From the NCBI GenBank assembly GCA_014380005.1, contig JACMKT010000171.1, positions 1 to 46,887 of the forward strand: a DNA stretch of 46,887 bases. Direction: 5' to 3'. This stretch comes from Rhodospirillales bacterium (lineage in GTDB: Bacteria; Pseudomonadota; Alphaproteobacteria; Rhodospirillales; Magnetospirillaceae). Positions 12,960-29,919 of the stretch are shown here, in pieces. A program made the position numbers and the translations under genes. Every line of letters starts with the position of its first letter. Within the stretch, counting starts at the first letter, position 1. The notes beneath the pieces are model-generated. The model made no database searches, had not been told where the DNA came from, and saw nothing but the letters and a program-made list of their open reading frames with translations.

Positions 12960-13439
12960 TCACTTCAAGCCCTCTCCCTGCCGGGAGGGGGCTTTTTGTT
13001 GCATGCGATTATGGCCCAAGCCGCAATATTCCCCGCATTGCAGAATCAACGGGCCGGTGACCTCGACCATGCGCACCTGACCGGGCACCAAGCTGTATTC
13101 CCGGCCCTGGACCACCACGCTGTGAACCGTATCCACCGCCGCCACATGCAGACGGTAGGTCTCGCCCGCTTGCAGGTCCAGCGCCGGCCAGAACTGGAAG
13201 CGCCGGGCGATCACCGGCACGTCACTGCCGGGCGGCGGCTGCACCACGGGCATGCCGTCGCGCTCGCCGATCTGATGGGTGGCGGCGTAGGTCTCGGCGC
13301 CTAGGATGAATTGGTCGGGGGATTGGGCATAGGAATCCGTGGGGGCGCTGTCGGTCATGCGCCACACCGGCCATGCGGCCAACAGGACCAAGGATGCGGC
13401 AAGCAAGGCCGTGGCGCCCCAGCGATCGGCGTTAACCAT
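12960..13439 (-). CDS. CuA-containing heme-copper oxidoreductase subunit II
   Basis: 159 residues. One N-terminal membrane helix (about residues 9-26) anchors a periplasmic cupredoxin domain. All CuA ligands are present: H106, C135, E137 (carbonyl), C139, H143 and M146 in CGEYCGLGHNRM. It receives electrons from cytochrome c and passes them to subunit I, whose stop codon it overlaps by 8 bp. The protein ends only 13 residues after the last ligand, and most of that tail is encoded by the terminator hairpin of the opposite operon. The short size matches ba3-like subunit II rather than the aa3 type. Confidence 0.85.
   Translation of the reverse strand: MVNADRWGATALLAASLVLLAAWPVWRMTDSAPTDSYAQSPDQFILGAETYAATHQIGERDGMPVVQPPPGSDVPVIARRFQFWPALDLQAGETYRLHVAAVDTVHSVVVQGREYSLVPGQVRMVEVTGPLILQCGEYCGLGHNRMQQKAPSRQGEGLK
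12969..12997 (+). terminator. Intrinsic terminator of the glycosyltransferase operon
   Basis: A 10-bp stem (12969-12978 with 12983-12992, one G-T pair), loop TGCC, then TTTTT (12993-12997). It ends the rightward operon but lies within the last codons of the leftward CuA subunit gene, so it is read as protein on the other strand. Confidence 0.9.
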
Positions 13440-14766
13440 GGGTGCTCTCCCGCTTGATCAACCGGCCCAGCACTTGGACGACGAAGATCACCCCGCCCAG
13501 CACGGCAATGGCGCCGCCCAAGCCCACCACCCCCATGGACACCAGCTTGAAGGCAGAATCCAGGCCTTGCTCGGCCCCGGCGGTCTTGCGCGCCACCCCA
13601 GCCAAACCAGCCAGATAAAACCCCAGGGCGTGCAGCAATTGGCCGAAGCCGTAAAGATGGAACTGCGCCCGCACCCAGCCGCCGGTTCCCCGCCGCAGCA
13701 AGGGCAGCAGCACCACATGGATCAGGCCCATGAGCGCCAGATTCACGCCGCCAATGACGGCGTGATAATGGGACGGCGTGCGGGTATCGGCCACGCCCAG
13801 GGCAAAGCCGGCGGCACCGCCCAGGGCGAACACCGCCAGGGACAGCACCAGGGCCAGCACGCCCGGCGAGCGCCAATCCATGCCGTGGCGCAGCAAACGC
13901 CACGCCAGCCCGGCGCCCATGACCAAGGGCGGCAAGGGCAAGCCGTACCACAGCATCTGGGTGAAAGCCTGACGATGGGCGAGGCCCAACACGTCCAGGC
14001 GCACATAGACCAGCGGCGCCGCCACGGCGAACAGGGTCAAAGCGGCGAAGGCGGCCTTGGCGGTCAAGGTCGGCAAGGCCCCCTGGCCCAAGGCGCGCTG
14101 GGCCAGCACCTGCCAGCCCAGCATGAGCATCATGGTGTTGACCACTTGCAGCACATGGCCGCCGCCCCAGAACAGGCGTTCGTTCAAATGGTCAATGTCG
14201 GTGCCGGCGGGAATGGCGATGGCGGCCAACACGAAGCACAGCAGCGCCGACAGCAGCGCCACCGCCATGCATTGAATGGCGAAACCGGCCACGCCCGCCC
14301 CCCGCTGCAACAGGGTGCGCAATGCCGCCAAACCCACACCGGCGCCCAGCAAGGCCAGACCCAGATAATAAAGCGGGTGGACCAGCACCGGGACATAGTT
14401 GTTCAGGGATGCCTCGCCGCTGCCGGACAAGGTGGGCACCAGCAGCAAGGCACTGCCGGCCACCGCCAGCCCCAGCCCAATGAACCCGGCGGCGCGCGTT
14501 CCGGTTGGCGCGGCCAGGACCGTGAGCGCCCCCAGCATGGCCAGCAACCAGATTTGGAACGAGAACACCACATGGGTGACCAGCCCCTTGTGGAAGAAGT
14601 CCGGCCCCCAGGGCAGCCAATTCTGAGCCCCCGGCGCCCGCGACAACGCCAGCAGCAGGGCCAGCGCGCCGGCCACCGCCAAGGCCCCCAAGGCCAACAG
14701 CAGCCACCCGCGCAACTCGGTGCGGGCAGGCCTGTCCAGCGCGGCATTGTCCCAGGCAATCTTCAT
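13432..14766 (-). CDS. Noncanonical heme-copper oxidoreductase subunit I
   Basis: 444 residues, about twelve membrane helices, PF00115-like. Heme ligands are recognisable: H65 in VTHVVFSFQIW (low-spin heme) and H333/H335 in SHYHAVIGG. The CuB-side His is H204 in FWGGGHVLQVVN, but the Tyr four residues on, cross-linked in oxidases, is Val. The HH pair expected in the next conserved loop is absent; only H264 in LGLAHRQAF is near. Such losses fit NO-reductase-like or other non-oxidase members better than an O2 reductase. The ATG at 14766 follows AAAGGGGA; a longer frame to 14874 has no such leader. It forms an operon with the CuA subunit. Confidence 0.75.
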   Translation of the reverse strand: MKIAWDNAALDRPARTELRGWLLLALGALAVAGALALLLALSRAPGAQNWLPWGPDFFHKGLVTHVVFSFQIWLLAMLGALTVLAAPTGTRAAGFIGLGLAVAGSALLLVPTLSGSGEASLNNYVPVLVHPLYYLGLALLGAGVGLAALRTLLQRGAGVAGFAIQCMAVALLSALLCFVLAAIAIPAGTDIDHLNERLFWGGGHVLQVVNTMMLMLGWQVLAQRALGQGALPTLTAKAAFAALTLFAVAAPLVYVRLDVLGLAHRQAFTQMLWYGLPLPPLVMGAGLAWRLLRHGMDWRSPGVLALVLSLAVFALGGAAGFALGVADTRTPSHYHAVIGGVNLALMGLIHVVLLPLLRRGTGGWVRAQFHLYGFGQLLHALGFYLAGLAGVARKTAGAEQGLDSAFKLVSMGVVGLGGAIAVLGGVIFVVQVLGRLIKRESTHG

Positions 14767-26300: not shown

Positions 26301-26364
26301 GCCCCCAGTTTGGAAATACACAATGCCGAGGGTATGCTGTCGCCGGTGCATTGTGGAGGCAAAG

Positions 26365-26937
26365 ATGATGTGGAAAGGCCTGCTGGCCGCAATAATGGTG
26401 GCCGTGCTGGCTGTCCCGGCGGCGTCCCAGGAGCTGACCGGGCGCTTCAAGCTGCAAGACCACGATACCCGCATGGTCACCGAGCAGAGCTATACGGGCA
26501 AAATCCGGCTGGTAACGTTCGGCTATACCTTCTGCCCTGACGTCTGCCCAACCACCCTGTCCACCATGGCCGCCGCCCTGGATTTGCTGGGCGCGGATGC
26601 CGACCAGGTGGTGCCGCTGTTCATCACCGTGGACCCCAAGCGCGACACCGCCGAGCATCTGAAGGACTACATGGCCGCTTTCGGCCCACGCTTCATCGGC
26701 CTGACCGGCACCCGGGAAATGGTCGCCGAGGCCGCCTTCCAGTACAAGGCGCGCTACCGCATCCACAAACCCGATGAGGCGGGCGTCTATTTCATCGACC
26801 ACACCGCCGGCATCTTCATCATGGACCGCCAAGGCGGCTTCGTCGCCAAACTCAGCCACACCGCCACGCCCCGCGAGGTGGTGGACGCCGTGCAGGCAAT
26901 CATCACCCCGGACAGGCGCAGCGCCGATCCGGGGTGA
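26365..26937 (+). CDS. Sco1/SenC copper chaperone
   Basis: 190 residues. A signal/anchor sequence (residues 1-21) is followed by a thioredoxin fold with the copper ligands C57 and C61 in FCPDVC and H146 in FIDHTAG. Sco proteins load or reduce the CuA site of heme-copper enzymes in the periplasm. GGAGG lies 5 bp before the first ATG. The gene converges on the PCu(A)C gene, another CuA-assembly factor, and may serve the subunit II encoded at 12960. Confidence 0.92.
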   Translation: MMWKGLLAAIMVAVLAVPAASQELTGRFKLQDHDTRMVTEQSYTGKIRLVTFGYTFCPDVCPTTLSTMAAALDLLGADADQVVPLFITVDPKRDTAEHLKDYMAAFGPRFIGLTGTREMVAEAAFQYKARYRIHKPDEAGVYFIDHTAGIFIMDRQGGFVAKLSHTATPREVVDAVQAIITPDRRSADPG

Positions 26938-26946
26938 TAACGGGAT

Positions 26947-27384
26947 TTAAGGCTTGGGCGCCATGGCGCCGATGCCCATCACCGGCAACTCCACCAGCTT
27001 CTTGCCGGCTTTGGCGAAGACCAAGGTCACCGGCACTTTATCGCCCTCGGCCAACGCCTTGGTCAGGTTGATGAACATGACGTGATCGCCGCCCGGCTTC
27101 AGGGCGACAGTCGCGCCGGCGGGCACCGCGATGGACGGGACCTGCCGCATGCGCATGATGTCGCCATCCATGATGTGGGTGTGCAGCTCCACGGTCTTGG
27201 AAATGTCGGCCTCGGCGGCGATCAGGGTGTCGTCGGCACCATTGTTCTTGATGGTCAGAAAGCCGGCCCCGGCATTGGCGATTTTGGGCGAGGCCCGCAG
27301 GAACCCGCCGCTGAGCTCCATATCGGCAGCAGCGACGGCAACGGGGATGACCGCCAAGATGGCGGCAAGCATGAGTTTTTTCAT
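26947..27384 (-). CDS. PCu(A)C copper chaperone
   Basis: 145 residues with a signal peptide (about 19 residues). The copper motif H-x10-M-x21-H-x-M is exact: H68, M79, H101 and M103. The family carries Cu(I) in the periplasm to the CuA or CuB sites, with Sco1. The gene stops 9 bp from the convergent Sco1 gene and lies 88 bp downstream of the DUF2946-like gene on the same strand, so a copper-handling operon is likely. Confidence 0.92.
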   Translation of the reverse strand: MKKLMLAAILAVIPVAVAAADMELSGGFLRASPKIANAGAGFLTIKNNGADDTLIAAEADISKTVELHTHIMDGDIMRMRQVPSIAVPAGATVALKPGGDHVMFINLTKALAEGDKVPVTLVFAKAGKKLVELPVMGIGAMAPKP

Positions 27385-27962: not shown

Positions 27963-28445
27963 TCAGCCGCCTTCGATCTCGCCCATGGCGGTCTGCAGGT
28001 AATTGGCAAGGCCCATGCTGGCGACCAGACCCTGCTGGGTCTCCAGCCAGTCCAGATGCTCTTCAACCTCTTCCAGGATTTCGCGCAATTCGTGGCGGGT
28101 CTGGAAGTCCTGCTTGGTTTCGCACAAGGCGATGGCAGCCACCAGTTCGTCGCGCTCCTGCACCACGCCTTTCAGGTCGCTGTCGAGGATTTCCTGCACG
28201 TTCTCGCCGATGCGCAGCTTGCCCAGATCCTGCAGATTGGGCAGGCCTTCCAGGAACAGGATGCGCCCGATCACCTCGTCAGCGGCCTTCATCTCGTCGA
28301 TGGAGTGCTTGTAGATGGCCTTGCCCAGATCGCGGAAGCCCCAGTTCTTCAGCATGCGGGCATGCAGGAAATACTGGTTGATGGCGGTCAGCTGGGTCTT
28401 GAGGATACCGTTCAGCGCCGCGATGACGTCTTTATCGCCCTTCAT
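27963..28445 (-). CDS. Bacterioferritin subunit, heme-binding type without ferroxidase site
   Basis: 160 residues, normal for bacterioferritin. M52, the axial heme ligand, is present in IDEMKAAD. Of the E. coli di-iron ligands only E51 and H130 remain: position 18 is Gln, 54 Ala, 94 Val and 127 Val. It should therefore bind heme but not oxidise iron by itself. It lies 14 bp downstream of the second bacterioferritin gene, which has the opposite pattern, so the two presumably form a mixed 24-subunit shell. Confidence 0.92.
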
Positions 28446-28459
28446 GTGCGTCCCCCTTC

Positions 28460-28939
28460 CTACGAAATATCGCTGGCGGCCGATTGCTGATAATTGGCAA
28501 GGCCCAGGGCGTTGATGAGGAATAGCTGCTGTTCCAGCCAGTGAGTGTGGTCGTTTTCAGTATCGGCCAGCAACTCGCGCAGCAGGTGGCGAGTCTCGTA
28601 ATCCTGGACCTGCTCACAATGGGCGATGACCTCTTTCAGATTGGCCACCACCGCCAGCTCGTAGGCGAGGTCGTTCTTCATCATGGACGGCACGTCGGTG
28701 CCGATAGCCAGGGCCGCGCGCGAGGCCACGTCGGGGACACCGTCCAGGAACAAGATGCGGCGGATCAGACGGCTGGCGTGCTCCAGCTCCTCGACGCGCT
28801 CGTGCTCAAGCCGTTCATAGAGCTTCTTGAAGCCCCAATTTTCGTACATGCGGGAGTGGACGAAATACTGATCGGCGGCGGTGAGCTCGCCGGTCAGCAG
28901 CTTGTTCAGCCGGTCGATGACGCTGGGAATGCCCTTCAT
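28460..28939 (-). CDS. Bacterioferritin subunit, ferroxidase type without heme ligand
   Basis: 159 residues. The di-iron ligands are kept: E18, E51, H54, E94 and, one position later because of a one-residue insertion, E128 and H131. The heme ligand M52 is replaced by Leu (VEELEHAS). It should oxidise Fe(II), while its partner supplies heme for iron release. Heteropolymeric bacterioferritin of two such subunits is known from Magnetospirillum. The start at 28939 follows AAAAGGG; the frame is open to 29083 but that part is not family-like. Confidence 0.92.
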
Positions 28940-29082
28940 AGCGAGCCCTTTTTGTAGGAGAAGACCCAGGAAGCGTGCCGGATGCCGGCGGCTTTCATCT
29001 CTTGTTTCAAGCTCAAAGCGCACCTCAATTGCGACGCATTCGCAATCTACCAGCGAAAACTCCCTTGGGCAACCGGCGATCA

Positions 29083-29919
29083 TTACGCCGGCAAGATGCT
29101 CACCGCCACATCCATGGGCGGCGCCAGATAGGGGGACGAGGTCACCAGCACATGGGCACCGGCGCGGGCATAATCGGCGGCATTGGCGGCGGTGACTCCA
29201 CCGGCGGCGGCAACCTTGACCAAGGGGGCCAATTGGGCGAGGCGGGCCACCACCACAGCCACGTCACTGGGCGGAAATTTCTCCAACTGGACCACATGGG
29301 CGCCGGCCAGGGCGGAGTCTTCGGCCTCCTCCACGGTGTTGACCTCGACCACCAGCTTCTTTTCCGGGCAGGCTGCCTGCAATTTCGCCAAGGTGACGGC
29401 CAAAGGCTCAGTCAGAAAAGCGCGGTGTTCGGGGAAGACCAGCACGGTTTCCGACAGGCCCAGACGATGGGGCACCGCGCCGCCCGACAATATGGCTTTG
29501 ACGGCAATGGCGCGGGTGCCGGGAAAGGCCTTGCGGGTGCACGCCACCACGATGCCGGGCCGGATAATGCGGGCGGCATCCACCATGGCACGGGCGCCGG
29601 TGGCCATGCCCGAGGCTGCCTCCACCAGGGTTTGCGCCACTTTCCACGACGCCAGCAGCGCCCCTGCCCTGCCCTCGGCCACCAGCAAGATGGCGTCGGC
29701 TTCGGCGTGGCTGCCGCTGGGCAGGACGTCGCGGACCACGGCGCCGGTGCGGGCGATCAGCCGCGCCGCTTCCTCGGTGGACGACACCACCATGGCCTTG
29801 CGGGCGCGGAACACCATGCGGCCCGGCGCGGCACCCATGCCCAAAGCGTGGGTGGTGAGGTCGCCGTAAGGCACATCCTCGGCCAGGAAGCGGTCCAGTT
29901 CCCCATCGGTGATGATCAT
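29083..29919 (-). CDS. ModD, NadC-like molybdenum-associated protein
   Basis: 278 residues, quinolinate phosphoribosyltransferase fold. The start IITDGELDRFLAEDVPYGDLT and the blocks GALLASWKVAQTLVEAASG, VACTRKAFPGTRAIAVKAIL and HRLGLSETVLVFPEHR fit ModD rather than NadC. ModD genes usually sit with molybdate transport genes, and their reaction is not settled. Here the start codon overlaps the nifQ stop (ATGA), so the two are translationally coupled. Confidence 0.85.
   Translation of the reverse strand: MIITDGELDRFLAEDVPYGDLTTHALGMGAAPGRMVFRARKAMVVSSTEEAARLIARTGAVVRDVLPSGSHAEADAILLVAEGRAGALLASWKVAQTLVEAASGMATGARAMVDAARIIRPGIVVACTRKAFPGTRAIAVKAILSGGAVPHRLGLSETVLVFPEHRAFLTEPLAVTLAKLQAACPEKKLVVEVNTVEEAEDSALAGAHVVQLEKFPPSDVAVVVARLAQLAPLVKVAAAGGVTAANAADYARAGAHVLVTSSPYLAPPMDVAVSILPA

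Follow-up and report, generated by a model that had tools for sequence, protein, structure and literature searches.

A CuB-less paralogue of heme-copper oxidase subunit I: a possible maturation factor for heme-A enzymes in the place of SURF1

What can a subunit of a heme-copper oxidase do once it has kept its heme ligand positions and lost most of its copper site? The question is raised by a gene pair in a 46,887-nucleotide stretch of DNA from a Rhodospirillales bacterium (positions 1 to 46,887 of contig JACMKT010000171.1, assembly GCA_014380005.1), called the window here. A sequence-only reading had taken the pair for a CuA-fed NO reductase (NOR) or another non-oxidase member of the superfamily, possibly related to the newer NOR groups.

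The gene pair and its fold

The coordinates and strand which that reading gave for both subunits are correct, and the window also holds two genes for copper chaperones:

13432..14766, minus strand: CuB-less paralogue of heme-copper subunit I, 444 amino acids
12960..13439, minus strand: small CuA subunit II, 159 amino acids, overlapping the 3' end of the subunit I gene
13002..13037, minus strand: CuA motif C135-G-E137-Y-C139-G-L-G-H143-N-R-M146 of subunit II
26353..26937, plus strand: SCO1/SenC copper chaperone (PF02630, 156 bits), about 12 kb from the gene pair
26947..27384, minus strand: PCu(A)C copper chaperone (PF04314, 125 bits), adjoining the SCO gene

Subunit II retains every CuA ligand, as had been seen before (H106, C135, E137, C139, H143 and M146), which identifies it as a CuA-type subunit II; profile matches to it are weak, the CoxB model reaching 21.4 bits against a cut-off of 147.7 and PF00116 staying under threshold (12.7 versus 22 bits). 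Its tail past the Met146 ligand is unlike that of the relatives L035 and L036, and its last 13 codons (12960-13001, minus strand) contain, by eye, an inverted terminator-like or hairpin-like repeat. The SCO and PCu(A)C proteins are possible assembly factors for the CuA site of subunit II. Two neighbouring bacterioferritin-like genes (27963-29083, minus strand, named by eye) lie near the SCO/PCu(A)C pair, and the subunit genes themselves have a divergent ABC transporter set upstream and a convergent glycosyltransferase-like gene downstream, both also named by eye.

Subunit I and its family of CuB-less COX1 relatives are given the working name HCOfam. PF00115 (COX1) matches the window's subunit I with 40.8 bits (cut-off 34.8), and none of the NCBIfam models matches it. 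The AlphaFold2 model of subunit I, built on an alignment of 50 relatives, has a mean pLDDT of 92.9 and 12 long helices by count; in a Foldseek search with this model structures of the Thermus ba3 oxidase occupy ranks 1-10 (TMq up to 0.81), followed among solved structures by bo3, cbb3, other oxidases and one NOR. Thermus ba3 also provides the sole confident HMMER matches of HCOfam in the PDB, where a search with a single HCOfam sequence returned chance matches only; no HCOfam match was found in the plasmid collection searched. With both the fold and the profile of COX1, HCOfam belongs by homology to the heme-copper oxidase superfamily.

Ligand positions and the extent of the family

Ligand positions were read from an alignment of 50 HCOfam members, comprising the window and 49 of 55 loci (L039, L040, L062 and L071 were left out, and the fragments L088 and L089 stand outside it). 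Nine further heme-copper proteins from HCOfam-bearing genomes, with all six histidines and a Gln four residues after the first CuB histidine (H+4), are called eNOR-like because of that Gln, following the rule in the available part of PMC8756737. The positions in the window are:

14572..14574, minus strand: H65, helix II, ligand position of the low-spin heme, invariant (50/50)
14155..14157, minus strand: H204, the sole CuB-ligand position left, helix VI, invariant (50/50)
14146..14148, minus strand: Q207 (H+3), invariant (50/50), Gln also in the nine eNOR-like rows
14143..14145, minus strand: V208, the oxidase Tyr position (H+4), in HCOfam F39 Y8 V2 I1
14005..14010, minus strand: V253-Y254, where helix VII has lost the HH pair of CuB, by three alignments
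13762..13770, minus strand: H333-Y-H335, helix X, ligand positions of the high-spin and the low-spin heme, invariant (50/50)

The sequence-only reading was thus right that the heme His positions are retained and that the Tyr four residues after H204 and the following HH pair are missing. V253 and Y254 align with the HH of Thermus ba3 (HMMER) and with the H273/H274 pair of the nine eNOR-like proteins (hhalign, and MAFFT across families), and position 254 is Tyr in 37 of the 50 members and His in two. H264, which had been offered as a nearby stand-in, is His in just 19 of the 50 and is ruled out as a substitute CuB ligand. Since V253/Y254 occupy the place of the HH pair and H264 is unconserved, the CuB site has lost two of its three ligands, and not one as had been supposed. 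Across the alignment this loss is a trait of the family and not a local defect. The two members with His-254, L084 and L086, are from Magnetococcales and are possible intermediates in ligand loss.

HCOfam shares with the B-family ba3 oxidase of Thermus thermophilus the fold, the heme positions H65, H333 and H335 and the first CuB histidine H204; unlike ba3 it has no helix-VII HH and no Tyr at H+4, and it is about 120 residues shorter. The eNOR-like proteins resemble it in a profile match of 99.9% probability (hhalign), in the Gln at H+3, in the CuA subunit of the window's clade and, in some genomes, in a common gene cluster, but the nine rows have six histidines and Gln at H+4 where HCOfam has four and F/Y/V/I.

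Oxygen reductases have three CuB histidines and a cross-linking Tyr; HCOfam, with one CuB histidine and V208 in the Tyr slot (Tyr in 8 of 50 members), does not qualify as a B-family O2 reductase. Nor does it carry the six conserved histidines given as the superfamily signature in the accessible part of PMC3475470, only four of the six (H65, H204, H333 and H335) being invariant in the 50 members. The NOR types described in the portions of PMC3475470 and PMC8756737 at hand keep three metal-B histidines, one of which is Asp in certain types, and have E, Q, D or N in the Tyr position. As far as those portions go, the residue is Gln in eNOR (PMC8756737 Table A4), Asn together with three CuB histidines in sNOR and CuANOR (bNOR) (PMC8756737, PMC3475470), Asp in gNOR (PMC8756737, PMC3475470) and Glu together with three FeB histidines in cNOR/qNOR (PMC8756737). 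HCOfam has neither the Gln of eNOR at H+4 nor the HH pair, and its cupredoxin subunit II is a clade trait; there is no Asp, as in gNOR, at 204, 208 or 254 in the 50 members, nor at 253 in ten rows; and the 50-member tally together with the MAFFT alignment sets it apart from the residue patterns of sNOR/CuANOR (bNOR) and cNOR/qNOR. On these residues HCOfam fits none of the NOR classes compared, namely eNOR, sNOR, gNOR and cNOR/qNOR; nNOR, which Murali et al. 2024 reportedly defines, lies outside this comparison. Of the suspected kinship to the newer NOR groups, what survives is that the nearest proteins are B-family and eNOR-like and that HCOfam stands beside eNOR in some genomes; the residues of eNOR, sNOR and gNOR are not there. 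COX1-family matches that adjoin CuA genes need such ligand checks before surveys class them with the oxidases or the NO reductases.

A single-sequence search (E 1e-5 or better) finds a match in 205 of the 297 genomes of the window's order, not all of them proven members. With the HCOfam profile, 56 of the 249 genomes searched in the phylum as a whole give a match, that of the window among them, and the weakest matches are eNOR-like proteins. Named loci come from Magnetospirillum, Telmatospirillum, Rhodospirillales MAGs and Magnetococcales, and further ones from Thioploca, Candidatus Halobeggiatoa and Candidatus Thiodiazotropha. Placement in a tree of heme-copper families, which the sequence-only reading had suggested, was carried out for 84 rows (midpoint root, long-branch warnings; the empty G000_C131 row is not in the tree), and a branch with full support separates all 66 HCOfam rows from the eNOR-like, A-type and C-type rows. 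HCOfam comes out as monophyletic; by profile and fold matches it is nearest to B-family/eNOR proteins, its sister group being left unsettled by the midpoint root and the long-branch warnings. Nine of the 66 rows (L100-L108) form a second, gammaproteobacterial branch with TPR repeats fused at the C-terminus (PF13432 and others in L103:1997-3913(+), TPR matches in most of the rest); this form is often an additional copy alongside the main one.

Neighbouring genes and the relation to SURF1

A gene for ctaA, ctaB or DUF420 (ctaM) lies in the fetched flank of 38 of the 54 loci L035-L088, short contigs included. In many loci HCOfam has DUF420 (PF04238, the family of ctaM) on one side and ctaB on the other, neighbours an aa3 operon, or adjoins ctaA, which in group f53 (G305, G340, G348 and G388) comes directly after it on the same strand. 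The partner enzyme is aa3 in the Rhodospirillales loci and in f53, and eNOR-like in genus g4 and other gammaproteobacteria; because the partners differ, the common need looks like assembly of heme-A/heme-copper enzymes and not like one substrate. The order in g4 (L115 and L116) is eNOR, CtaB, SCO, a cytochrome b/FeS fusion, a small protein, HCOfam and the CuA subunit, and the gammaproteobacterial loci L079 and L113 have related orders. Within the eNOR-like clusters (L115, L116, L079, L113 and L069) the membrane cytochrome b carries fused domains of the 4Fe-4S and FlpD (hydrogenase delta) types, as determined from L069; the small protein that accompanies it has no Pfam match and adjoins the CuB-less protein in L115, L116, L079 and L113. 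Six of seven other carriers examined in genus g1 have a cd1 nirS-type gene on the same contig as HCOfam, no more than about 3 kb away, and in G140 two Crp-type regulator genes, the second identified by eye, stand between it and HCOfam.

The CuA gene directly follows HCOfam in just 13 of 53 loci, and we therefore regard the CuA partner as a trait of some clades only. In the other 40 loci a CuA gene is missing from the position directly downstream; a few of these loci break off at a contig end. The order is HCOfam-CuA-CtaB in L037 and L043, and L165 has a CuA-like gene immediately upstream.

Co-occurrence with heme A synthase and SURF1 was counted in two sets of genomes. The order set comprises 80 genomes, 44 of the 205 with a match (all at least 95% complete) and 36 of the 92 without; carrier status here comes from the single-sequence search, so that a distant HCOfam member may be missed, and 20 of the 92 non-carriers are named, the others being defined by absence from the matches. 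In the second set, from the rest of the phylum, carriers are 28 of the 56 genomes with a profile match, all with at least 385 bits, since weaker matches include eNOR-like proteins (the only match of G457, about 150 bits, is of this kind), and non-carriers are genomes absent from the profile matches (20 named).

Heme A synthase (CtaA) is found in all 44 carriers of the order set and in 19 of its 36 non-carriers. SURF1 occurs there in one of the 44 carriers, as against nine of the 19 non-carriers with CtaA and none of the 17 without it; the corresponding counts in the second set are 1/28 carriers (1/27 with CtaA), 26/27 and 0/17. Pooled over CtaA-bearing genomes, SURF1 is present in 2/71 carriers versus 35/46 non-carriers (Fisher test, uncorrected for kinship), and counted by family in 3/26 versus 18/19 (Fisher test on hand-compiled tallies, likewise uncorrected). 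Such near mutual exclusion among CtaA genomes is the pattern expected of a SURF1-like role, a likeness of function and not of homology. HCOfam occupies the same genomic niche as SURF1 (Shy1), close to ctaA/ctaB and the genes of heme-A oxidases in CtaA genomes that rarely have both, but no sequence relation between the two is seen, and SURF1 is built of a large outer domain with two membrane segments (PMC9145763, in the part available).

The pattern has exceptions. Ten CtaA genomes of the order (G003, G052, G053, G072, G077, G082, G089, G098, G106 and G107) have neither HCOfam nor SURF1, both occur together in G004 (in one cluster), G359 and at locus L078, and the carrier G377 (93% complete) has no detected CtaA. 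Seven of the nine SURF1-bearing non-carriers of the order belong to one genus; as carriers and SURF1 genomes fall in such kin blocks, independent events are far fewer than genomes. Among the four g4 non-carriers that were examined, only G118 has CtaA, and there SURF1 sits between coxC and ctaA. The search for carriers that have CtaA and lack another heme-A enzyme gave no clear case, with COX3 surveyed in the 80 genomes (a match at 1e-10 in 66) and COX1 in five plus 23, the latter mostly of group f53. Carriers of f53 own another long COX1, of A type by its neighbours in G305 and G340, except for G521 (74% complete). The G004 cluster (L170, G004:C21) contains coxC, coxB, coxA, DUF420, the CuB-less protein, ctaB and SURF1, with both factors in the same cluster.

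Explanations of function

HCOfam has kept the heme sites and lost the CuB site; a CuA gene is often missing beside it, ctaA, ctaB, ctaM or sco lie nearby, its partners are two different heme-A enzymes, and SURF1 rarely coexists with it. The simplest account, which we infer with confidence that stands about even, is that an oxidase paralogue was turned into a factor for the maturation of heme-A enzymes and stands in for SURF1. The fuller form of this account, in which an ex-oxidase subunit inserts heme A into enzymes of its own class, serves aa3 and eNOR-type enzymes and replaces SURF1 in Rhodospirillales-type alphaproteobacteria, Magnetococcales and sulfur-oxidising gammaproteobacteria, is a tentative proposal somewhat short of an even chance.

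The ancestor would have been the catalytic subunit of a B-family-type heme-copper enzyme, which then lost its CuB site. Heme A, made by CtaB and CtaA, would be held by HCOfam (perhaps heme B or O too) in H65/H335 and H333, with H204/Q207 over the open face, and HCOfam would then hand it on to newly made subunit I of the oxidase, or alternatively tune CtaA. Loss of CuB would stop the loaded protein from reacting with O2, and its clients would be heme-A enzymes, either an aa3 oxidase or an eNOR-type enzyme. In the Magnetospirillum-type clade the attached CuA subunit II could wire HCOfam to cytochrome c or template CuA assembly. Ligand loss, conservation throughout the family, the gene neighbourhoods, the nesting of HCOfam within CtaA-bearing genomes of the order set and the near exclusion with SURF1 are observed; the heme type, the heme transfer and the CuA role in maturation are the parts of this model that we infer.

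According to the accessible portion of PMC9145763, SURF1 is a heme A-binding protein that may serve in storage and insertion of this heme, the route of heme A insertion into subunit I is described as not known, gene duplication may give rise to assembly factors, and SURF1 is missing from whole phyla, e.g. Bacillota. If HCOfam is a maturation factor, a client-like membrane protein with heme sites only, in SURF1's place, would offer a testable answer on heme A insertion. We found no proposal of an oxidase-like SURF1 substitute in the literature searched, which mostly excludes subscription journals and includes the available parts of PMC9145763 and PMC8239418.

Several observations weigh against a maturation factor. 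These are the ten CtaA genomes of the order with neither gene and the three cases with both, the carrier without detected CtaA, and the kin blocks that cut the number of independent events. The often-adjacent DUF420/CtaM could be the true SURF1 substitute. The proximity of nirS in g1 and the eNOR clusters of g4 and some gammaproteobacteria favour a nitrogen-oxide role, and a pure chaperone role leaves unexplained the CuA gene that is attached in the window's clade and upstream in L165.

Part of this evidence would suit a stand-alone heme a/b membrane protein, an explanation we consider rather unlikely. The low-spin heme would take electrons from CuA or another donor, and a small ligand (NO, O2 or H2O2) would bind at the high-spin heme, under a cap formed by His204 and Gln207; the protein would act as a scavenger, peroxidase or sensor, and the nearby assembly genes would supply its own heme A and CuA. 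Invariant heme ligand positions with the CuB pair missing speak for this, as do the complete CuA subunit in the window's clade, the membership of eNOR clusters in g4 and several gammaproteobacteria and, in G140, the nearness to nirS and the Crp-type regulator genes. There is also a candidate precedent, the 'cytochrome a1-like hemoprotein' of Magnetospirillum magnetotacticum, reportedly described by Tanimura and Fukumori 2000 as a heme-a-containing protein of two subunits encoded by mcaI-mcaII-hosA, with a heme O synthase gene adjoining and a subunit I said to be without CuB ligands; that gene order matches L037 and L043. HCOfam may be this mcaI/mcaII protein, which comes from the same bacterial group, and if so it has been purified before. 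Against a stand-alone hemoprotein are the 40 of 53 loci without a CuA gene directly downstream, the near exclusion with SURF1, which it does not predict, and the lack of any FNR/NNR-type box in the 350 bases upstream of the gene, both in the window and in seven relatives, on which NO or anoxic regulation was also rejected.

The idea that HCOfam is a NO reductase fed by CuA, with a novel active site and perhaps from yet another group derived from eNOR, is improbable, and with two CuB ligands gone and no NOR diagnostic residue it was ruled out as first choice. It draws on the closest profiles being those of ba3 and eNOR-like proteins, on the Gln at H+3 common to HCOfam and the eNOR-like rows, on the links to eNOR clusters in some genomes and to nirS in g1, and on the distribution of eNOR, which is present in 16 of the 80 same-order genomes, all 16 of them HCOfam carriers. 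But two of the three metal-B ligands are missing and H+4 is F, Y, V or I, the eNOR clusters already contain a complete eNOR, and 28 of the 44 carriers in this sample lack an eNOR match, which disfavours any role bound to NO alone; the window's genome has neither an eNOR nor a cd1 match. Gene context and co-occurrence, which point to heme-A enzyme assembly, are a further argument against it. What stands of the original interpretation is a non-oxidase member of the superfamily with, in this locus, a CuA partner.

Still less probable is a redox partner of heme A synthase that accepts or supplies electrons in the conversion of heme O to heme A. The directly adjacent ctaA in gammaproteobacteria and the presence of CtaA in all 44 same-order carriers would agree with it, but HCOfam is absent from 46 of the 117 CtaA-bearing genomes of the two sets. 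That HCOfam is merely a decaying oxidase paralogue without function is hardly credible and was ruled out, for although its catalytic ligands are lost, matches occur in the majority of the order's genomes (205/297, not all proven members), 29 columns are invariant among the 50 aligned members, and the window gene differs from its nearest relative L035, at 90% amino-acid identity, by 106 third-position and 25 second-position changes, an excess that indicates purifying selection.
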